DNA of 64,000 nucleotides from the NCBI GenBank assembly GCA_000697055.1, contig JNDT01002388.1:1-64000 (forward strand). Reading direction: 5' to 3'. A model generated the notes under the pieces. The model searched no databases, was not told the origin of the DNA, and saw only the letters and a program-made list of their open reading frames with translations. Position numbers and translations under genes: made by a program. The stretch is from Saksenaea vasiformis B4078. Taxonomy: Eukaryota > Mucoromycota > Mucoromycetes > Mucorales > Saksenaeaceae. Position 1 is the first letter of the stretch. Each line of letters starts with the position of its first letter. Positions 33,764 through 60,305 of the stretch are shown piece after piece.

Positions 33764-35453
33764 TTATTCATTCTCGCTGTCTTCCTCTTCTGCAAAAAAT
33801 GTCTCACAAACCCAATCGACAAACGCTTCATCGAGCGTTTCGCTGTCTTCCGTTCCATTTCGAAACATCTCTTCATCACCACCCCGTTTAATCCATGTCT
33901 GGATAATCTTCATTGCTTCAGCCTTTTTTCCTGATGTTCCAACCCAGCTTTCCTGTGCCCAGGTGGCAAATGCCCAGCCAATCCAGCCGCTTGTAAGCAC
34001 CTCTTTGTTGATCTCGACAGCCTGCTTAAAGTAAAACTCGGCATTTTTCAATAGCTGAACCTTGTTTCGCTCGGCCACTGGCAATGGAAGCCGTGCGCGA
34101 GCAATACTAACGTCTCCCAGTTTGTTAAGAATGCTGAGATTTTTTGGCTCAATTGCCAAAGCCGATTGAAGCGATTTTGTCGCCTGTGCATACAATTGCC
34201 AAACCTCTTTGCCCGTGGTTTCTGGTACCAGAGGTGTGTTGGATTTGACGGAGAGATCCAGCAAAGCCTGTGCATAGGATGTCAATATGTCGCCACGATC
34301 ACACATGGCTTCAACGTGTTTGACATCAAATTGCTCTATCACTTCATCCAATCTTTCAATAGCCTGGCCAAACAAGGTATGATCTACCTGACCAGACGCT
34401 AAGAACGACCGATCAGCCATGGAAGCAAAGTTCTGTGCCTCTTTCAGATTGATCTGAATTCTGGCCTGCTTGTGATCTTTTCCCTCTGGAATACTCAGCA
34501 ACCACTTTTCTGCCAAAGAGAGTTTTGCACGTGCACGACTAAACAAATCCATCGATGTTTGGAAAGATGCAAGCATGGATGCCATCGTTGTCATTGTCTC
34601 AGCCGTCGAAACCAATGTATCCACGAGTGAGAAGGCTGTTGTTGGTTCCACCTCTGTAACCGTTGTATACTCTCCTTCCTCCCCTGACTGCTGCTCCTTG
34701 CCACCTTCCTCAGTTGATGGCGTCTTCTGTGTCTCTGTTGTGTCTGACCGGCATGCATTGTATTCTTTCTCTTGCAATTGGTATACATTTTCAAATAACG
34801 TAATAGCTTCCTGGAGGGCTAAGAAACGAGGGATAAGCATGCATACACGAACCTTCCGTGTCTATTACCGATCGCCGATTGATTGTAAGCATTATCAATC
34901 TCCGTGGTTTCTTGAAGCACTTCCGATCGCTGGTGTAATGCTTGACCAAGGTTAAATTGAGCATCGGTCTTATTCACGTCTAATTGAAGTGCCTTGCGGA
35001 ACTTGGCAATCGACATATCAAGGTGTTCTAATTTCTTCTCAGGTGCAGTGTATGCCGGCATAAAAAGCGTAGTTAACAAGAAGAGAACGCGACCCCTTTT
35101 TTCCAATAAAACAACAATGAATGGAGGAGCTTTTTTACCAAAAAAAAAAAAAATTGTTACCAGTTGTAGAGGCAATCGGCATCGGTTTCATTCAGATCAT
35201 GTGCCTTGCCATACATTTCAGCAGCGCGTTCATAGTTGCGCTGTGCACGTTCACCCGTAGCATACCGTTCACCTTGCTCCTCAAAGGCAACGCCCTCTAA
35301 TATAGAAGAAATAACACTCCGTTAGAGATCACATGGCGATTTCCGTGATCGGCATCCCCCTGCCATAAAATCCTCAAATGTCTCTGGCGCCTTTGATTTC
35401 TTTGACGCGGACGATTTGGGTTTCTGCGCTCGTTGACGTTGGAATCGACTCAT
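33764..35453 (-). CDS. Tetratricopeptide-repeat protein of unknown role
   Basis: The N-terminal exon starts at 35453 (MSRFQRQRAQKPKSSASKK). The following exons (about 35294-35161, 35095-34869, 34818-33764) give ERYATGERAQRNYERAAEMY, HDLNETDADCLYNWGRVLF, SIAKFRKALQLDVNKTDAQF and NLGQALHQRSE, all TPR-like helix pairs. An acidic spacer (EEGGKEQQSGEEGEY), further helical repeats (ATKSLQSALAIEPKNLSIL, NAEFYFKQAVEINKEVL) and a very acidic C-terminus ending FFAEEEDSENE follow. The TPR scaffold suggests a partner-binding role. Junctions of exons 2-4 are clean; the exon 1 donor is not a clear GT (see findings). It is divergent from COA8. The family name is not recognised with confidence. Confidence 0.7.
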
Positions 35454-45747: not shown

Positions 45748-48700
45748 TTACGTGGAGTCGACTGTAATAGAACCTAAGCGTTGCAACTCTGCAGTCTTGT
45801 AGAACGAGAGATAGCGCTTCCAGTACTTCCGTAGACTGTCCTTGATGCCAAGCTCTCCGCAGACCCTGTTGTGAGCCACGTTGATCATTGGCCATCTTAT
45901 TTTGATGGCGCGCTTCAATGTTAACGTCTCCCAATGATTTCCATTGACGCGATGGAGCAGTACTGGAAAAGGTTGGTCCTTGTTGGTACGTGGACCATGT
46001 AGGGGCAGATACGTTTGTGGCAACTCTTTCGGGACTTGTATCGACTCGTGTTTGTCATTGATCACAGTTGCGCAACCTGCGTCAGAGTAGACTACAACCG
46101 GTCGTCGACAAGTGTCTGCTGCTAGCTGAAAGCACTCCGGACCTTGCCACCAGTCACTAACGTCTGCTGTTTTTTTTATCGCATGGTGCAGTGCGATCAT
46201 CGTCTTCTCCAGCGGACACTCTCTTCTCCAGATCTTTAACGTCATACCAGAGATGGTTGCGGTATATTTCTTTGTACGATTGTAGAGTCTCCAACATTTC
46301 TCTCTTCACCTCAGAGTAAACTTCTTCATCCCCTTTGATGTGCAAGGCCAGTGTGCGGAAACCGCAGTGTCCATCACCTCTAATCTTTACTGTTGTTTTC
46401 ACAGCTTCGATCGGGATAGCTGGATCAACAGCAAAGTGGAATGGCTCCAATTGTGGTTTGGCCCTGAAATATCTGTTTGAGTGCACGCTTTTACTTGCTA
46501 TTTTACCTTTTATTGGGTAGATATTCATCAAAATCTTCTCGCGGTCTTTTCGGCTCTTCTGGAAGGGTAGAGGTCGGTTGTTCTTTCGAATTCTAAGATT
46601 TCAACAGTTAATAATCATAAATGTATTCCAGTATTGCATACGGTAGCGTCTTCAGCGTCTTCTAGGTGTTGTTTGGAGAGTTGTTGGGGTTCTTTCCGCC
46701 ATTTTGCAACCTTTTGGAGGAGCCTTAATCGGCGTGATTTTAATTTTGTTGTAGGTCCAAAGGACAGGGGGATTCTTTTCAACTTTTTTGGGAATCCTGG
46801 CGTCTTGATGTCCTCATCCTTTGAGTTACGAATTTCGTCGTGTTTTGTGATGGGAGTCTCTGCCAGCGCCTTCAATTTTTCAAGTAGGGAATTCATCTGC
46901 TGTCTATCTTCACATGCCACAAACTTGGCGTCCAACATGTTCAGGTATTGCCTCCACGGCTGATCGTTTCGGCTCCCATCAACTGGGCCACTTTCCGGCA
47001 TGGAGGGCGATGGTCTTGCCGCATCCAAGTGCCATCTTCTAGGCAAGTTGTGCATCTCTATTGGACCTGTAGCCGGGATGCTGTGTTTGCAAGGTAAATG
47101 AAATACCAAGCGACATCTGCATCGACATTCGTCAGCTGCTACGCCAGTGACCACTTTGTCCATCTGCTCTTTGATCGTCAACAAGGCTCGTGAAGCAATT
47201 TTCCCGATAAGTGGGAGTAGCCTGCTGTGGTCTTTCTCTACGATGAAAGCATCGACAGTGACCATTTCCTTTGAACAAAGGAGATTCCATTCGTCATTCT
47301 AATACGTATACATAGGCTTATGAGATCTAAAATCCAACGCAACAGTGTACCTTCTCCATATAATGGCGGTGCATTTTTTCAAATGCTCTGTCAAGTCTGG
47401 TGGCTACTGTTATATCCTTCTTCAATGATGAGTGTGCGCTTTCAACTCGTTGGGTAGTTGTGCAGCCAAAATGACAGATTTTCTCCGTGATGAAGCCTGC
47501 CCATTTCTCTTTGCACTCAAGCCATCTATTTCGCAGAAGAAATGAACAAACTTTCTACTGCCTACATCTTACTTGTTCATGTACTTGATTACAGCGGCGA
47601 ACCATCCTTATTACAGCCAGAAGCAGCAGCTTCTCGAAAGTTATGCAAAGCTTCTGTAAACTTTTCCTCTGAACGATGATGGGCCATGGTTGACAATACA
47701 TTCATACATTTCTCGTAGTAATCAGCTACACCATGCTTAAAATAGCCCTTAATATTCGTTATAAAGTTTTGCATCATGTGCCACGTGCAAAGAAGCTTAG
47801 TGGCATCAGGAAACTCAGAGTTAATGGCATTGATTAGGGCAGAACATTGGTCAGTAACGAATACACCAGGTTTCGCGCTTCTGTACATAAGCGACTTCAG
47901 CTGCTGAAGCACCCAAATATAGGTGTCTTCGGGTTCGTCGCATACAAAAGCTCCTGCAATTGTAAACGTACGAAGATTTACACCTCCAAGGTTCCCAACA
48001 CCAACGAAATCAATGAATGGTAATTTCATGCTATTGTGTATTTTAAGCAGTGAATGAAATGATGATTAGGCTAAGGAGAAAAATAGTAATTAGAATGCTT
48101 AAAATACCTGTTGGTGTTATTGATTACATCAATAAGGACCACTTCAGGAAAAGCTTTCGCACGTGCAGCCATCGAAGGGTGAAAAAAGAACAAGCTACGC
48201 AGCTGGTTCCCATCGGTCAACTCGTAGCGGATCTCATACTTCTCTTCCACCATCTTCTTGATAGTCGCTGCTGCTGCCTCTGACATCTTCACGGATGCAG
48301 ATCTATCCTGCCAGTTACGCAAATCCCTCTGAACAACGGTGACAGCACGTGGATCATCTTCACCGTTGACGAGAGTACGAGCAACGACTTTTACAGATGC
48401 TCCAGCTTTGAACATCTCCTCGCTCAACCGCTTCTGTCTCGTAGAGAGTTGTCGATTCTCATGATAGGCACGAGGATCCACATTATCCAACGAATGATTG
48501 TGATAATCTTCTTCCTCATTTCCCGGCTTGCTCGCGTTAACTCTCCACTGTCCATTTTTCTGCATGGAAGCTCTGATGAGGTACGGGCAACCACAGCGCA
48601 TCGAAGTTGCCAATCTCTTGCGCTCATCCGGTTGCATACCTCGCGTGTTCCTGTACACACCTCCTTTCTTACACTTAATATGAAGCGATCCATCCTTAGA

Positions 48701-48925
48701 AAACTTTGTAACGATCGCAAAACCGTTACGTCTAGACATCTCCTTTGCTGCCTCCAACAACTGCTCCCGAGAATCGTACACATGACCGCTCAAAGTCTCA
48801 GGAACGGCATAATGAGCACTAATGGGAGAAACAACTATGTCGCGAACGATGTTTTCTGCAGGGATGGCGCGCATATTTGAATATAAAGAGCTACGGACAC
48901 GAATTCTTCTACCTTGGGCTGACAT
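45748..48925 (-). CDS. MULE transposase with SWIM zinc finger and C-terminal OTU protease domain
   Basis: Order of domains along the minus strand: N-terminal FAR1/FLYWCH-like DNA-binding region (SREQLLEAAKEMSRRNGFAI, ATSMRCGCPYLIRASM, EEDYHNHSLDNV); the DDE domain (FPEVVLIDVINNTN, then after an intron 48031-48107, KLPFIDFVGVGNLGG, GVFVTDQCSALINAINSEFP, LLCTWHMMQNFITNIKGYF); CHFGCTTTQRVESAHSSLKK; SWIM finger (ECRCRCRLVFHLPCKHSIP near 47110); and an OTU cysteine-protease domain with KIRGDGHCGFRTLALHIKG, GPECFQLAADTCRRPVVVYS and NGNHWETLTLK carrying the Cys and His of the active site. Such SWIM-then-OTU MULE proteins are known in eukaryotes. Most junctions are ordinary introns, but inside the OTU part (46160-46250) the frame changes without a plausible intron. 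An ATG at 48982 would add 19 residues; 48925 gives the more usual short N-terminus. Confidence 0.8.
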
Positions 48926-49009
48926 GAAGGTGATTTGAGATGCAAGTGAGAGAGAAGGGAACCTAACCCATTGTGAACACAAGAGCTATGCCTGTGTTAC
49001 CCGTGTCCG

Positions 49010-50460
49010 CAAGATCTAAATATGGTCTACCCAATCATTGCCGTAATAAGAATGGGGAAGATCATTTCGAATGCCGTCAATCTCTTTGCGTGGATACCGA
49101 GGAAAGGAATTTTCCCACGGTCTCACTGAATTTCGTCAGTGGAGATCCTTTCGTGATACCTGCCGGAATACAACTTTACATGGTTTTGCGTGTTGATTTG
49201 CGTCGATGGAATATAATTTTCGCGGTGACCAATCGAACAGGTTTGCGCTGGTTAGACCTTTTGCGTCATAGAAATTAACTTCAGTTAATGATGATCTAGC
49301 CTTTGACAATGATTACATGAAGCTGAAGCCGCTTCATTGGATATGAATGGAGTTACTTCGTTTGACATCAATATGTACGAGGAATGATGAACCAAATGGG
49401 TGGGCAGAATTGCCTCGTTCGTGTGCAGCTACTTTGCGTGACGGATGGTGGGAAAGAAATGGTAATGCAGATGTACAAACCTCGTTCACTTTCCAAACCG
49501 ACGAGAGTGTGAACAGGTAACTAAGCTAGGGCGAGAGGATCATACAGACGATAAACGCCGCGGTAAACAGGAAACTGTCTTATTTGGTGATTGAAGAACG
49601 ACGAACAACAAAAGAAGCAGCATTCATCACTGGGATAAATGTCCGAACCGCACAGCATTATATCAAAACGTACAATCGGGATGAAGAAAGACGTCTCCCT
49701 GGTATTCAGTGAAAGCCTTGTGCGACGTGTCCTTTTTTTGTTCGTGCTGGAGCTTGCCACCCAGAGGAAATACATTAGGCCTTCTGGTAAGCTGACTGAA
49801 GCTCACTCCTGCTTTCTGGTAGACCAGTTTGCATAAAACGTGACTTCTATCCTGATTGATATAAGGAGCAGGCTTTGTGAAGCTTTGCATAGATATCTGG
49901 TTAATTAATAAATGCGCTATAACTTTCAAAAAGTTGTAAAAGCTTCCTGCAGCAAGGAATTTGGTCGAGTCTTAGCATTACCGAAAAACGATACAAGAAC
50001 CGAGTTTCATTAAGCTATATCTATTTTCATATACAAAGAAGGACTGGTATTGACAAGGAAAGCATGCTACTTTCATGATCAGATTGCAAGGTGTGGATCG
50101 GCGTGGTACCGTATTCATTGCTGCTGTTTATTGTACGAGCAGGTCCAAAAATTGAAGTAGATCATTCTGAGCGTGAGATAAAGGGGAAGGCCAAGATTTG
50201 GAGTGTATTGCAATTTGGCTATCAAGGCCAATGACAGCTACAAAGGTCAGTAATCCTCTCCAAAGCTACATTGTGACCTCCAATCAATATTCTAATGTTG
50301 AAAAGTAAGCCTGTTAGCGGAGTCCATTCAAGTGGGAAGTCTCGACACATTGCAAAAGTTGTCAAAAGCGAAAAACAGTCTTCTCTTTTTTCCCTTCTTC
50401 TCACCTATCCTAACTTTACTCTATTCCCTTTGACGTCTTATATTCCCTCTTTCTTTTAAA
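49010..50460. other. Spacer between the MULE and the Fanzor gene
   Basis: No supported gene. A plus-strand frame at 48973-49278 overlaps the transposon end and has no motif. Bases 50380-50460 are pyrimidine-rich directly before the ATG at 50461, as in promoters or leaders of fungal genes. Confidence 0.35.
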
Positions 50461-53182
50461 ATGGAGCTTACCTTGACTGAAGTTATCTACATAGCACTCT
50501 GGTTAATCGTTCGCGTGGTTAACTTGTCGGTGCACTCCTTGATCACCTATAAAAAACATTTACGAATTTTGAAATTAAAAGCAGAAAAAGAAGAGCGAAC
50601 AAAAAGTACCTTTCACATTGATAGCGAGCTTAATCTTTCTGAACATCTCGATCTTAGTTGGCTGTAAGGACTGCAGCGGCCTTGGACATCCGAATAAGAG
50701 ATACAAGGTGTGCCCAAAAAATGCCAACCACGGAAGGATAACTGGTGATCATATTTAAAAGACTTCCTTTTGCTAAATAACAAACCTATAGTCAGTACGA
50801 AAAGGAAGTTGACCATCGAAGAACAAGCTGAATCATCCAAAGCAAAAAAACGGGGAAGGAACGCGAAAGCGTCTGCAAGCGCAAATGAAAACTTGCCTCC
50901 ACCGTCTTGCCCTGCCTGCGGCTCAAACGAGCATCGAAGTTCAAGGTCCTCGCAGTGCCCGAAGCATAAATTGACGATGAAACAGACTGTTTATGACAAG
51001 TTGGGAAAAGACAACGAAAAGTTTACCAGGAAATTACCGTTTGACAAGATCGTTCGTCTTGCATACCAACACGTACTCCACGAAAAGGTTACAAGATTAT
51101 GTAATCTGTCCAGAAATGTGATAACATGGGCACAGTTGTTCGTCAACTGGTATATCATCAAGAATGCTCGGGAAGAGATCGCTCCGTACCTCTTTACGCA
51201 AAATTTTTGGTATTCCATATGCCAACTAGTCCTTGGGAAGGAGATTACCAGCACTAATCACAAGCTGCCGAGCGATATTGTACAAAATTGGAGAACATTT
51301 TGTACCAACCACCCAAACAGCCTATACCTGTTAGCGCGGCAGGAACGCTGCAGCGACATACTTTCTGCCGCATGTGTGACGCTTGCCACAGCGTACTCGA
51401 ACCATGTCGTCGAGACATTTGAGAATCGAATATTCTTTTATGCCGTCTATCAATTGAGATTCCTTTTACCTGTACGTGCTCCACTTGTGCTATCTTTTTA
51501 CTCACATCATAATAGAACCGAAGCCATAAGCTAGCAAAAGAAATTTCCAATGACTATATCTTTGAACGGATTGCCTCGTTGGCCTCATTCTATTTCCGAG
51601 AATATTCCTGTCGATATCAAAACGGCGGTCGAAGCTGTATGCCAGGAGTTGGAAGAGATAGTCCCAAAACCAGCGACTAAAGAAGCGATATCTGCTTCTC
51701 CCGGGAAGTACATTCCAGCTTTACGGCAAATTCTGGAACTGTATGACAACATGCATCAGCAAGCGACCAAGTCTACGCAGTCGAAGGATTTACCACGTCT
51801 TTTTGGCCTGACACCAAGCGAATCGTTCCAGTGGCGGTTTATTACCATCGATGCCAAAACTCTCGGCAGCCTTGTATCTCGCAAGGCTGGGACCACTCAC
51901 GAGGATCATTTGAAACTGTTCTACGACGTTCTGGATTTCTCCAGATTAGGGTTTCAAAGGTAACGCTCATGTAAGGAAATGTCGCTGATTTTTTTTTCAC
52001 GTAGCATCGAATCCCTCCAAAATTCCGAAAAGTACATGTTCACCAATCAAATATTGACGCAGCGTACAAAGCTTTCTGTCGATGATTTCACACAAACAGA
52101 GGTCCAAAAACATTTCCGTCCGTGTGCTATAGATCCAGGGGTTAGCCAGGTCTTTACCGCATCATACGGCGAGGGAACCAACTCTCATGAAATTCGCCGT
52201 TGCTCGACAGCGGAGTATTATGCCTATACTGGAGCATTTCGACGTCAACGAGCGATGGATGCTGCAAAGAAGACTGGTCGCATCAAAGATATTGAAACGG
52301 AGATGCCTACAGGGAGGACGCAGCTTGAAGAGCGCTACAATGACCATATCCGTTATGTATACCAGCACTTGGAGCAGCTCTTTGGTTTTTACGGTCCATC
52401 GACGGCAGAAAGCCGATTCAGAGACTATCAGGGCAGACAGAGGGCCATGGAAGAAATGGTGAACATACTCGTCGATGGAGGGAAAAAGTATAATCGGCGA
52501 AAAAGAAAGAAGACAAAAGCGAATCGTAAGGAACGCAAGCGAAGGCGCAAGAAAAAGATGAAGAAGCTAGTCTTGGAGGTCGAAAAGTATGATGGAAGTT
52601 GTAAATGTATGAAAACTAATGAAATTCATAGGGGAAGAGTTCCAGCGCAGGTCATGTCAACAAAAAGATCTACCCTACGCCCAGGCAGTCGCCCAAAAAA
52701 AATGGAAGCAAACAGCGTTCCAGGAGACAACAAAAATGCCCCTCATCGTTTTCGGGGATGCGATGTTTGGCAATAAGATGACATACAAAGGAAAGCGCAA
52801 GAACGTAGTGAACAAGTGTTGGAAAGGGCTGAAGCGACGCGAACATAGAGGAGAACTACTAGCGGTGACAGTAGACGAATATCTGAGCTCTCAGGTAAGC
52901 TTAAGCAATTATTCCACTGTTGAGTATTCAAATGTTCTCTAGATTTGTAACAACTGCCACGGCAGATGCCTCGAAAAAATCACGACCAAGGATTTAATCT
53001 CACACCATGGTGTACTAGCTTGTAAACGCTGTAGAACACTTTGGCAACGGGATGTAAATGCTAGCAAGAACTTGTTTTGGATTGCCAACGACATCTGGAA
53101 GGGCTATGGTCGACCTACCGAGTTCTTGCGCACACAGACAACTATCGCCGGTACGAATCCGGTTTCCCTTTTAGGGATTTAG
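50461..53182 (+). CDS. Fanzor: eukaryotic TnpB-like RNA-guided endonuclease
   Basis: Fanzors are the eukaryotic relatives of TnpB/Cas12: a RuvC nuclease guided by an RNA made from the element's 3' region. Six exons (50461-50663, 50796-51471, 51535-51959, 52005-52600, 52632-52894, 52943-53182) join in one frame to 800 residues. An N-terminal zinc-finger-like block (CPACGSNEHRSSRSSQCPKH) precedes a helical part (DKIVRLAYQHVLHEKVTRL, ARQERCSDILSAACVTLA). RuvC-I is AIDPGVSQVFTASYGEG. A long insertion with a very basic segment (RRKRKKTKANRKERKRRRKK) follows, then MPLIVFGDAMFGN, RuvC-II (AVTVDEYLSSQ), a zinc ribbon (CNNCHGRC..CKRC) and RuvC-III (LWQRDVNASKNLF). All three acidic motifs are present. 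The first exon (hydrophobic, 67 residues) is joined by inference; translation could start later. The fourth intron is only 31 nt, with an actaat branch-like site. Confidence 0.85.
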
Positions 53183-53323
53183 ATTATTACGGTTAGTGAA
53201 ACGTCTTGTAATCCTTAACTTAGATCAGTTTTACTTATGCTTCCCTTTAGGTGTATTCATCGGTAAGTCCTCTTCCAGGTTGTTGAACAGTGTACTCATC
53301 AGAGAAACGTTTGCGACGCTGAA

Positions 53324-53448
53324 ATGCTCTTGTATCGCCAAAACCAAGTGGATAGGTAAGTACGCAGAGATCAACGGTAACGCTTTAATTTGATTAAATT
53401 TGGTTCATCATAGCATAAACTTGGTTTTAGGCGACCGCAAAAGAGCAT
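53324..53448. repeat. Inverted repeat 140 nt downstream of the Fanzor stop
   Basis: Arm 53324-53349 (atgctcttgtatcgccaaaa then ccaagt) pairs with 53419-53448 (acttggttttaggcgaccgc then aaaagagcat) apart from a bulge; the loop is about 69 nt. Both arm ends (ATGCTCTT, AAAACCAAGT) match exactly. It lies in the Fanzor 3' region, where guide RNAs of this family are encoded, and 170 nt before the RRP12 ATG. It could equally be a small MITE or a transposon end. Confidence 0.7.
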
Positions 53449-53618
53449 GATCAGCAACGCAAATGTTTCAAAACACAGTTTTGGAAGAGAAGAGTGGGCA
53501 GCGACGAAATCAACTCCGATGTCATTTTTGGAGTCACAAACAGTCCGCCTTCCCAGAAAAATTATTTTTTTTTCTCGGTATTGTTCAAGCAGCTTGCACT
53601 TTGGGAACCTACAAATCG

Positions 53619-56600
53619 ATGGAGGCGGCATTCGATAAAATCAGGAAACAGGCCAACTCCAAATTGGAGAACCAGAAACTGGTAAAATACCATGTCATGG
53701 CCTGTAATCGTCACTGATCACCGAATTTCTTTCAGTACGCTCAGACCTTGCTTGCCGTAGAAGAGGTACCCCTGAGAGACGCTACACCATTAGTATAGTA
53801 ACCTAACCATTTATTCTTCGTTAGACTATTCGAGAACAGAATGGCTCTCTTACAGCGACAGCATATTTTGCGGCTATGGTATGAGTACTTTAATCTTTTA
53901 ATGGATAGAAAGACCTCATACGTTCATATAGATGTCTACGTTACAATCTGTTCAAGGTTCCAACGAAGTGACTGGAGCTATTCTTTATCTGCTTGATGAA
54001 GTTTTCCCAAGGTAAAAATCGACTATCCTTATTGAGTTTATTAATCATCCATTGTTTAGCCTCCCACAATCAGTTCTTCGATCTAAATTCGGTGTTGTTA
54101 TGCCAATTCTTGAGAACACTTATGAACAACATCAAAACGAACAACCTGTTGTACGCTCAATCATTGGATGTCTGCAGGAACTATTAGCAGCCCAAGACAG
54201 TGCAACGTGGAGTATGCCAACTGTTAAAAAGGCATATCAGCTATTACTTATTTTGAGCGCTAATGCACAACCAAAGGTATTATAAATAGATGTAAGCGTA
54301 GACTAGCTAAAGCGAAAGAATATAGGCCCGCAAGAGAGCACAAGATGCAGTTCGCACCATTCTTTCGCGGCCACCGCCACCAGCTTTTGTTCATCCCGCT
54401 GCTGGCCTTACAGCAGAATTCACGTTACGCGTTTTGTACGAAACGACAAAGGCAGATCAACATGCAGCCCAACAAACTCTTGCACTACTTCAGTCGATTG
54501 TACCTTACTGGCCACCAAATGTATGTGATTCTCCAACACTTGAATTGGTCATTGACTCTTTATTTATCAATGCAGCAATTCGTGAATCTCTGTCAAGCAT
54601 TACTCCAACTACCAAAATTCAATAACATTTTCCTCACCAAGGCCGCTTTTGATGTATTCCAAACGCTGTTTGATGCTCAAGAAACGGACATTGACGAGGA
54701 AAAATTCGTTAGTCTCCTTTTGGTAAGTTGCGCATGTCACACAAACTGCATTGAAGATCCTGATCGGCTCTGTTTAGGCAATTTGCGAGCTTAAACCAGC
54801 TGCCATCGATGAGAGACTGTTGCCTACATGGTTGCTGATCGTCGGGAAAGCATACCCTGCCTACGCCAAGTAAGTATATCTCAAACCTTTTAGTCTGCTA
54901 TATTCACATCTGGACAGGTTAAATCCAGCTCATTGTGCTACTGAAGTGGTTGATGTCTTCCGCCTTATCTTCAACGACTTCCATCAAGAATCTCGATGTC
55001 ATCGTCAAATAGCAAACTGTCTGAGCACACTTGTAGACTATTGCATTACAATTGATATGGTGAACGAAGCAAGTGCGGGAAAAGCCAATGGTCTACTGCA
55101 AATCATTGAGTGTGCCGAAAGTGGACTGGGTGTTCATTACCAACCCGCATGGGTCCATGTCATGACAGTACACCAAGCCCTATTCCGAAAGTTACATCGT
55201 GCTGCCTCACCTTTAATGAATGGTTGTCTTGCGGCGTTGGGTGAACTTCGTCTTTCTTCTTCGGAAGCATACAAGGAACAATTGGACAAGACTCTGGGAG
55301 CTGCAATTGCAACCATGGGACCCGCGAACTTCTTGAATATTTTACCACTGAATTTGGAGACCCCCGCTTCTTCCTCCGATGTAGGCCGTGCCTTTCTCCT
55401 TCCGCTGCTTAAGACATATACCACCAACACATCATTGGCTTACTTTACAAACGTGATTATGCCTCTGGGAGATCGTCTCGCTCAAAAAGGACAGGACGCA
55501 GCGAATAAAGGTCTTGATTTGCAAGCCAAAGTGTATGAGACGCTGGTCAATCAGATTTGGAGTCTGGTACCTGGATTCTGCGATCTACCATATGATTTGA
55601 GAACTGCATTCACCGATGAAATTGCCGAACGATTCAGCTCTTTGCTTTATACACAGCCCGATTTACGTCCCACAATTGGTCAAGCCCTTCAACAACTCGT
55701 CGAAAAGAATCAGTCATTGGCCAAATCTGCAGCAGACGATGAGCATCTTCTAAAGGCGTACGCAATAACCAAAGCCGATGCTGCTCTCAATGTGGAATAC
55801 ATGAGTAAATTCGCTGTCAATTATTTGGCAGTGTTCTTCAACGTTTTCAGCCAAATTGCGCCTTCATTCCGCGGTTTCATGAGTGATGTTATCAAGTGTT
55901 ATCTTGGCATCACAACCGCACAGGTACAGTGAAAATCTGGGAAAGTGTAACGAGAGTGATTGATGCGCATAAATCGTTTAGGACGTAAATGCTACATTTA
56001 AAAAGGTTCTTGGATTATTGTCGCAAGCTTTGGAATCGTCAGGACCAGCTGCTCCTGTTAACGACCCATCAGCACCCGCACCAATGTCGCACACTATGTT
56101 GGATCTCTCTATCATTATGGTTCCTTTCTTGGATTTGGAGTCTGCGGAGTTATTATACAACGGAACAATCACCTCCTTAATTGGAAAAGAAGACGAGCCG
56201 ACGTTGCAGAAGAAGGGATACAAAATCTTAAATCATTTGATGGATTGTCCCAATGGTCGCCAGGTGGTACTGAAACATATCGATGATCTTCAGAACAGGC
56301 TTTTGGATGCCACTGCGTCCTGTACCGTGTCTGCTAAGAAGGACCGTGTCAAGACTCTGATGCATGTAGTACGCTTGCTCCCTTCCTCTGATCTCCACTT
56401 TGTTCCCGCCATCCTATCGGAGGCTGTCATTAGTGCTAAGGACAATAGCGAAAAGACTCGTGGCTTCGCTTTTACTCTCTTGGTCGAAATGGGTAACAGA
56501 ATGAAGGAAGGTGGTGTCGTGAAGAACAGCAAATTACAGGGAATGGATGAAAGCGTACCTGATGGTAAGACAGAGTGTCTACTGGTGTTACTTTTATTAA

Positions 56601-58489: not shown

Positions 58490-58800
58490 GAAATTTGCCT
58501 CCTTCCTGAGCTCTCCACAAACAATCACCACTTCTTCCGGAAACTCTTTGATAACGAATACCATCCGCAGCTTGGTCCACCTCTTCCAAAGGTCTAAAAT
58601 GGACAATGCCTTGATTACTTACCGAGTTTCTTTCAATGTGCCTTGGTTGTCTACCGGGTCTACGAACCGCGAGCGTCTTTTAAGCACCTTCGACCTATTC
58701 CGATCTCAGAGAGAAAAAGTGCTTGAAAAAGAAAGCGGTAAAAGATAGAGAACGTAAAAGCAAAGGATACTTACAAAGACTGATACAGATGAAATATCCA
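58490..58800 (-). CDS. Possible 3' exons of an unrecognised minus-strand gene
   Basis: Two minus-strand segments splice cleanly (donor gtaagt, acceptor attttag near 58590-58620): VLKRRSRFVDPVDNQGTLKE then TRPLEEVDQAADGIRYQRVS and DCLWRAQEGGKFPFGG with a stop near 58490. A further donor after MDISSVSVF (58770) could join them to the upstream frame that contains the GKKRM repeats. No family is recognised. A different frame over the same bases (58385-58606) is the alternative. It would be convergent with RRP12. Confidence 0.3.
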
Positions 58801-58849
58801 TGTATTGTGTGGCCGACGTAGGATAGCTCCTCTTGTTCATCCTCTTCCT

Positions 58850-59085
58850 ACCCACCCACTTCCTAATCGTCCTGTTCTTACCCGTCCTCTTCCTACCCAT
58901 CCTCTTCCTACCCATCCTCTTCCTACCCATCCTCTTCCTACCCATCCTCTTCCTACCCATCCTCTTCTTACCCATCCTCTTCTTACCCATCCTCTTCTTA
59001 CCCATCCTCTTCTTACCCATCCTCTTCTTACCCATCCTCTTCTCACCCATCCTCTTCTTACCCATCCTCTTCTTGCTTATCTTAT
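58850..59085. repeat. 15-bp minisatellite (CCCATCCTCTTCYTA), about 15 copies
   Basis: The unit cccatcctcttccta/cccatcctcttctta repeats almost without change from about 58880 to 59080, with looser copies before and after. Because 15 is a multiple of three, all frames stay open: the minus strand gives repeated GKKRM, the plus strand repeated LPTHP or PILFL. This keeps a minus-strand frame open from 58706 to 59452. Confidence 0.95.
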
Positions 59086-59090
59086 TATTC

Positions 59091-60305
59091 CTGTTCTTGT
59101 TAGTCGGCTTTTTTTTGTTTCTTTGTTTCCGGGAAGAGGGGAAATCGCAACCCATGACAGGTTCGACGACTTCGCTGAAGAGAAAGTAGAGTGATACTCC
59201 GCTAAAACCCCTCTCCCGTTTGTGCTTGTCATTCCATCCGCCGGCATCGTCCCATCGCCGTGACATGGAGATGCATCCGCCGATGCATGGGTCGATCGTT
59301 TGCGAGATCAACCTACCTCCGGGATCCGACCCTCGATGGAGAGAGAGGATCGTACACCAGCTGAACCAGATGGACGCATCCAGCCCTGACAGACGAATGC
59401 TGTCAGGAACCGTGCCCGCCAGTTCCCGCCCCCCCGGAACCGACGAATACATCGACTTTAGACATTACTCTCTGGTGTCATGTAAACCAGTCGAACGAAT
59501 GTTCTAATAAAAAGCGCATGTCGGCTATCAAACCGGAGTGACAGCTATACGGACAGATTCAGTACCAGGAATCAGCCGAACCCGTAGATCAGATCCACAG
59601 GACAATGCGTTAACTGACCTCTGAGGCTGAGGCACAGCTAAAAGGGAGGTATTTTAAAGAATCGTCTCTGGGAACCTTCCAACCCCACAAGACCAAAGTC
59701 TTGAGACGTGCGCAGGCTAACTCAATGAAGGGAACTCAATGAAGAGAACCCAATGGAGAGAACTCAATGAAGAGAACTCAATGGAGAAAGCCGGTCAGGC
59801 GAATACCCCAAGAACAGTTACTCCGGACTGACTGTCCTCAGAACGCACGCTGCCACGTAGTTTAAGGATATCTCCCTGGGAACATGGCCGGCCCGCGCGT
59901 GTTGGCCAACTCCCTAAAGGTGAAAACCAGTCAGCTGAAGCTCCAATCCGGAAAAAAAAACCGGGAAGCCGATACCCGACCCAAAGGAGCCTGATCAATC
60001 CAATGGACACGCGAAATCCCATAATCATAATCGCCAAAGGATTGTGAAGTTTCATCCCGGGACAGGAATCCGCTAATCCTAAGACGATGCGCCAGATAAC
60101 CTCTCTCGAAGTTACCTACTGACCAGCTCCTCCTCCTCAGAAACCAGTTCAGCCAAAAGGACCAAGGTCCTAAGGGCGACTTTGGAAATTCGGCACGGTG
60201 ACGCATAACTTACTGGATGACGACCAATGGAGGACTGGCAGCATATAGATGGTGTAAAGCCACGGCCATGGGTTTGCATAGTCCCGAGTCTCTACAAAAA
60301 AAAGC
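59091..60305. other. Low-gene region with degenerate coding-like sequence
   Basis: A plus-strand frame at 59220-59507 (for example MHPPMHGSIVCEINLPPGSD) has protein-like composition, but the sequence after it is broken by many stops. It may be a decayed retroelement; no motif supports a family. The 14-bp repeats at 59719-59788 lie here. Confidence 0.25.
59719..59788. repeat. 14-bp tandem repeat (AACTCAATGAAGAG), five copies
   Basis: Five consecutive 14-base units, aactcaatgaaggg, aactcaatgaagag, aacccaatggagag, aactcaatgaagag and aactcaatggagaa, fill this interval. Confidence 0.95.

Follow-up and report, generated by a model that had tools for sequence, protein, structure and literature searches.

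The DNA analysed here, a stretch of 64,000 nucleotides (nt) from Saksenaea vasiformis B4078 that we call the window and that is part of contig C648, carries on its plus strand a gene which by its sequence is a Fanzor1-type gene, of the TnpB/Fanzor nucleases, lying within a mobile element. The original prediction for this locus described an intact-looking gene of six exons joined in one frame; we have compared that gene with related proteins, with its other copies in the same genome (the siblings; 38.7 Mb on 666 contigs searched) and with the ends and flanks of related elements. The features of the locus are the following.

49175..49178, plus: TTTA beside the left end; the TA is a likely duplication and TTTA a predicted target-adjacent motif (TAM)
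49179..53478, plus: whole transposon copy, Tc1/mariner-type, about 4.3 kb (left end common to other elements; right end from copy alignment)
49315..49961, plus: transposase remnant, Tc1/mariner-type, N-terminal helix-turn-helix half, frame broken (by DNA similarity to locus L091 on contig C606)
50461..50605, plus: Fanzor exon 1
50658..50744, plus: Fanzor exon 2, first Cys/His knuckle
50792..51471, plus: Fanzor exon 3, second Cys/His knuckle and start of the WED/REC lobe (lobe by alignment to a folded relative)
51516..51959, plus: Fanzor exon 4, frameshifted by an 11-bp deletion near 51575
52005..52586, plus: Fanzor exon 5, RuvC-I and basic insertion, 54-bp deletion near 52058
52132..52134, plus: RuvC-I Asp codon, in exon 5
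52632..52894, plus: Fanzor exon 6, change in length of an A-run near 52695
52877..52879, plus: alternative RuvC-II Glu codon, in exon 6
52943..53182, plus: Fanzor exon 7, C4 zinc ribbon, stop TAG
53051..53053, plus: RuvC-III Asp codon, in exon 7
53183..53478, plus: conserved non-coding right end, expected (putative) source of the guide-RNA scaffold (by conservation among copies)

The Fanzor gene and its siblings

Much of the predicted architecture is borne out: the ATG at 50461 and the stop codon at 53180-53182 are present, AIDPGVSQVF, TVDEYLSSQ and QRDVNASKN all occur in the order quoted, and a CxxC..CxxC pair lies between the RuvC-II and RuvC-III motifs. Near the N-terminus a Cys/His block had been claimed, and two are found; these knuckle-like motifs (50658-50960) recur in whole or in part in relatives from Mucor and Rhizopus, and no Pfam zinc-knuckle match was obtained for them in the sibling protein. 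The assignment to TnpB/Fanzor also holds, and the gene is of Fanzor1 type by its matches, as the protein of an open sibling (on contig C436) scores 31.7 bits against PF07282, the Cas12f1-like zinc-ribbon profile (curated cut-off 26.3), and matches solved Fanzor1 chains in a PDB sequence search at E <=10, where PpFz1 is absent from the matches; exon 7 of the window alone reaches 20.6 bits, under the same cut-off. The structure predicted for a Mucor relative likewise matches Fanzor1 chains, and a profile search of a protein database added three proteins, two of them serving solely as rows of the alignment used for that fold.

The signature itself can be followed residue by residue. Exon 5 of the window and the open sibling both carry the DPG motif of RuvC-I, as AIDPG; the canonical position of the RuvC-II Glu reads G (LIVFGDAMF), and an alternative Glu lies six residues before the zinc ribbon (E752-YLSSQI-C in the sibling, the same in the window), the ribbon being followed by RD (CNNC-x21-CKRC-x6-D). 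The D-to-E spacing of 233 and the ribbon gap of 21 residues exceed the 120-160 and 12-18 of the regular expression in PMC10711439, which was widened in its D-to-E spacing and, to 25, in its zinc-ribbon gap; the motif of Bao and Jurka (PMC3627910) is matched with D-X(125,275). The WED/REC lobe of Fanzor1 is present as well. Between RuvC-I and RuvC-II there is indeed a basic insertion (61 residues, 28 of them Lys or Arg), but the description of it as unusual does not survive comparison, being a family trait common to the relatives from Mucor and Rhizopus. Two results weigh against this assignment. In sequence searches of the PDB the Mucor protein P0002 on its own hit no Fanzor, nor did the Parasitella protein P0074; and confidence in the model of the relative is low over its RuvC half (mean predicted local distance difference test score, pLDDT, 56.7), the catalytic site being for that reason placed by sequence only. 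By analogy with known Fanzors, working members of this family would likely carry out RNA-guided DNA cleavage.

Further copies, which had been anticipated, were found by DNA search of the same genome. It gave 44 match rows, and those at >=85% identity number 33, on 29 contigs including that of the window (the best 40 of 49 candidates were scored, and rows may be pieces of one copy); some copies stop at contig ends and the copy number is approximate. The window copy is one among about thirty copies and fragments. When the window copy was aligned with 22 sibling sequences, complete and partial, the sibling structure proved to comprise seven exons, with six GT..AG introns of 44-52 nt, in place of the predicted six exons. 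In C436 these seven exons give an open frame of 836 amino acids (aa), the sole open one among six full-length copies read with sibling splice sites, the interrupted ones being the window copy, C560, C637, C344 and C198; splicing itself we infer from the GT-AG sites and the sibling frames. Read in the same way, the frame of the window copy is first closed by a stop at codon 359, and its coding sequence carries three lesions relative to the siblings. Near 51575 in exon 4 it lacks 11 bp that are present in 9/9 covering siblings; near 52058 in exon 5 it lacks 54 bp present in 12/13, the thirteenth (C198) having its own deletion there; and in exon 6 the A-run near 52695 is one base shorter in 12 of the 15 covering siblings, three having it equal or longer. 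What is lost with the 54 bp corresponds to residues 477-494 of the sibling (DGFAVDLQFAR...), a conserved DGFAV-type strand before RuvC-I that reads HGFAVDFQFAR in Apophysomyces, DGFAVDFIFNR in Mucor and DGFGVCFAFAR in Rhizopus, and that in the Mucor model (segment at residues 443-453, strand 446-454) precedes the RuvC-I motif by about 30 residues.

A working Fanzor could still be read from the window if its splice sites differed from those of the siblings, for moving the acceptor between exons 3 and 4 and that between exons 5 and 6 yields a stop-free frame of 800 aa, and this copy retains the zinc ribbon as well as the residues D, E and D. We regard such a gene as highly improbable: the frame is reproduced only by moving splice sites at these two junctions, at the expense of a segment ending in DYIFERIAGGE and of the DGFAV strand, both of which are kept in the siblings and have similar counterparts in three Mucorales relatives, whereas the sibling acceptor at 51515, which sets the start of exon 4, agrees with the Apophysomyces relative. 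A scan for stop-free GT..AG choices (introns of 35-130 nt) returned 10 at the first junction and 25 at the second, so that frames are easily rescued by splice choice and joining into one frame is weak evidence. Assembly error in an otherwise intact copy is about as improbable. Repeats do assemble badly, many siblings end at contig ends and the A-run varies in length among siblings; however, the 11- and 54-bp deletions are absent from the covering siblings, deletions of these sizes are atypical of short-read errors, and the window contig continues through both flanks.

Substitutions bear on the same question. At codon positions 1/2/3 the coding variants common to at least two copies number 34/28/100, compared with 98/72/110 for private ones (chi-square P 3e-5; C198, with its large insertions, excluded), a pattern that we read as a family evolving under protein-coding constraint whose single copies decay after insertion; the private changes of the window copy (6/2/3) have no third-position bias, although the numbers are small. 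The intact window gene is rejected by sibling comparison, and on its sequence this copy is a decayed pseudogene. As to the predicted active or recently active nuclease, a recently active one somewhere in the genome other than at this locus is plausible because C436 reads open. Present activity is less certain, since only one of the six full-length copies is open. C436 itself is truncated by a few bases at the start of its left end and may no longer move.

The transposon and its right end

The right end of the element was fixed by aligning 14 copies, which close on ...CAAAACACAG, followed in 12/14 by TA, and TA also precedes all nine complete left ends of Fanzor-bearing copies (a count that omits C436, C397, C310 and C137, which are without a left end). 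TA stands on both sides in three of the four copies having both ends (C637, C560, C344), and is likely the target-site duplication. The fourth is the window copy, whose right-hand TA reads TT; this, together with ends that match only imperfectly as inverted repeats (about 28 bp by eye, automatic searches having given no clear pair), weighs against the explanation proposed below. Over its leftmost 500 bp the window copy belongs to a related left-end subfamily, and for this reason we view this copy as a mosaic.

A transposase of its own was recognised only in part. The remnant resembles L091 at 68-76% in DNA, in pieces, and C606 has downstream an open reading frame (ORF) with a DDE_3 match of 75.3 bits; the window piece 49530-49712 gives a weak HTH_23 match (16.8 bits, cut-off 24.6), and no catalytic DDE half was recognised within the Fanzor element. 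Because that half was not found, the element appears to rely on an outside transposase. An origin from a Mutator-like element (MULE) was considered and rejected, as the FAR1-like ORF at 48071-48985 belongs to a different repeat, with no match extending past 48987; this minus-strand Mutator-like transposase fragment, lying beside the Fanzor element, has a FAR1-like domain at 24.8 bits (cut-off 28.1). Nor do we claim a Fanzor-less 'ghost' element on C484 (locus L101), whose right-end score of 23 falls within the 19-28 of other loci on the same strand. Fetched pieces (<=2 kb) of 14 related elements contained no Fanzor exons at a useful E-value.

The non-coding right end is conserved among copies to the same degree as the gene, with a mean pairwise identity of 0.946-0.972 in five blocks (exons 0.944-0.968) that drops to 0.885 in the last 47 nt. 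The predicted guide RNA from the 3' region of the gene is an expectation from the family, to which folding and covariation lent no support: in 5/5 sequences the right-end RNA is no more stably folded than its shuffled versions (z -0.26 to 1.20), and none of 24 pairs covaries among 12 closely similar copies, both of which count against the explanation proposed below. Known RNA families at gathering threshold, and tRNAs by ARAGORN, were absent from the window. Within the conserved right end, positions 53356-53413 form an intron-like stretch of 58 nt (GTAAGT...CATAG), so splicing might occur in the putative guide RNA or in a 3' untranslated region reaching this far.

Left-flank motifs and a proposed explanation

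Eight of the nine complete left ends are preceded by TTTA and the ninth (C458) by TGTA; against a background frequency of 0.091 for TT before TA in the window, this bias has P 4e-8. It is also one-sided, because TAAA follows only 1/12 right ends. In Spizellomyces punctatus the left repeat of Fanzor loci is preceded by a conserved CA, and measurement gave CATA as the TAM (PMC10432273); TTTA is predicted by analogy to be the TAM here.

Several of these strands can be drawn together. We consider it probable that the window gene is a decayed, spliced Fanzor1 copy on a Tc1/mariner-type transposon, whose working relatives would likely cut the TTTA-flanked empty site under RNA guidance, so that the element is copied back. 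Observed parts of this account are the repeat family, the element ends, the sibling exon structure, the lesions, the Fanzor signature, the third-position bias and the left-flank bias. Mechanistically, a transposase supplied from elsewhere would move the element, and its right end would yield a guide RNA whose guide portion is the right flank; Fanzor and guide RNA would then cut the empty site left after excision, beside TTTA as TAM, whereupon the element could be copied back in, and cleavage of empty sites would select insertions carrying the TAM.

A further 33 left ends extend this picture, the groups having been formed by element DNA similarity after the flanks had been seen. The same left-end type in elements not known as Fanzor-bearing (C159, C484, C312) gives TTTA in 2/3 and CTTA in 1/3, and ten ends of the window's own subfamily, again not known as Fanzor-bearing, give TTTA six times and TATA twice, with two unclear. 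One clade (C184, C651, C486, C23, C143, C572) has CT before TA in 6/6, TG occurring in one; C582, C315, C252 and C34 read [CT]GTA in 4/4; C606, C380 and C287 are flanked by CATA and C439 by CGTA; and the remaining six (C390, C502, C629, C651 near 120 kb, C523, C26) are truncated, unclear or fall in no group, C629 reading ACTA. Diverged Fanzors lie about 1.7-4.1 kb from the left end in C184, C651 and C486 (38-39% identical, N-terminal part), C439 (46%) and C582 (45%).

These motifs are predicted from sequence to be clade-specific TAMs. Our tentative reading, which we hold as possible rather than probable, is that several diverged Fanzor1 clades share near-identical left ends in one genome while the insertions of each keep their own oriented motif (TTTA; CTA; [CT]GTA) following the Fanzor-bearing right half, and that RNA-guided cutting, not the transposase, would decide which insertions survive. 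A rival view, somewhat less likely still, takes TTTA as the asymmetric target preference of a trans-acting transposase, with no Fanzor motif involved. TA is the insertion site of Tc1/mariner elements, an oriented preference is conceivable given that the element has unlike ends, and no Fanzor row was found near the other related left ends (best 54 of 788 candidates), including the CATA elements C606, C380 and C287 as well as C23, C143 and C572, leaving their motifs untied to any Fanzor seen; these are points against selection by RNA-guided cutting. In its favour, left ends that are alike over about 40-55 bp (about 87-93%) have flanks that differ between element groups, as in the 6/6 and 4/4 just given. 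Moreover C184 (loci L089, L102), an apparent natural recombinant of two related element lineages, is 91-92% identical in its left kilobase to C606, C380 and C439 (CATA, CATA and CGTA) and 93% identical in its right part to C23 and C143 (CTA), and its own flank is CTA, thus tracking the right half; this is, however, a single recombinant, and its grouping was made post hoc.

Should selection of insertions by RNA-guided cutting be true, the flank record would be a genomic trace of such cutting deciding the survival of eukaryotic cut-and-paste insertions, and TAMs could be read from genome sequence alone. The role of Fanzors for their transposons is described as still open in PMC10432273, and a genome in which related elements carry different Fanzor clades, with a flank motif particular to each, makes the copy-back idea directly testable.

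Genomic surroundings and comparison with known systems

In the genome at large, PF07282 has at least 137 matches at E <=0.001 (best 150 of 388 candidates) on many contigs, some within long open frames (e.g. C419:64464, 772 aa). The likely start codon (53619) of RRP12, a gene of ribosome biogenesis (RRP12_HEAT match of 308.7 bits at 54874-55932), follows the right end of the element at a distance of 140 bp, and the element may touch the RRP12 promoter (53478-53619). Elsewhere in the window, the conserved minus-strand gene at 33764-34840 is 80-82% identical to Apophysomyces proteins and at most about 64% to the other named genera among the matches listed, which places the host in the Mucorales, and a minus-strand ORF of 248 aa (58706-59452) contains a long run of KKRMG-type repeats.

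The presence of Fanzors in Mucorales is not new, because Fanzor1 elements of Rhizopus, Phycomyces and Mucor had been listed by 2013 (PMC3627910), the MuDr-type ones with 9-bp duplications. Our literature search turned up no Fanzor paper for Mucoromycota or Saksenaea by name, and PMC11423790 was alone in combining RNA-guided endonucleases or TnpB with Mucorales. What is new here is the one-sided TTTA bias of the left flank together with the clade-linked flank motifs. The element resembles those in which Bao and Jurka (2013, PMC3627910) described Fanzor1 within Tc/mariner elements (PGv-1, PUl-1 and others) in its mariner-type transposase region, chimeric halves and TA duplications, and differs from the PGv-1/PUl-1 type in that only the N-terminal transposase half is recognisable. 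In PpFz1 of Parasitella parasitica (PDB 9cf0, 9cf1) the FRI insertion, about 100 aa long, folds into a domain that binds cyclophilin (PMC11423790), whereas the basic insertion here, of 61 aa, has no sequence match to it. Also among the closest known systems is SpuFz1, of the Spu-1 element of S. punctatus (Fanzor1; PDB 8gkh), where a single unbroken ORF encodes 633 aa and the inverted repeats measure 33 bp (PMC3627910); in Saksenaea, by comparison, seven exons encode 836 aa in the open sibling, the ends are imperfect, TT replaces CA before TA, and the N-terminus bears a pair of Cys/His knuckles.
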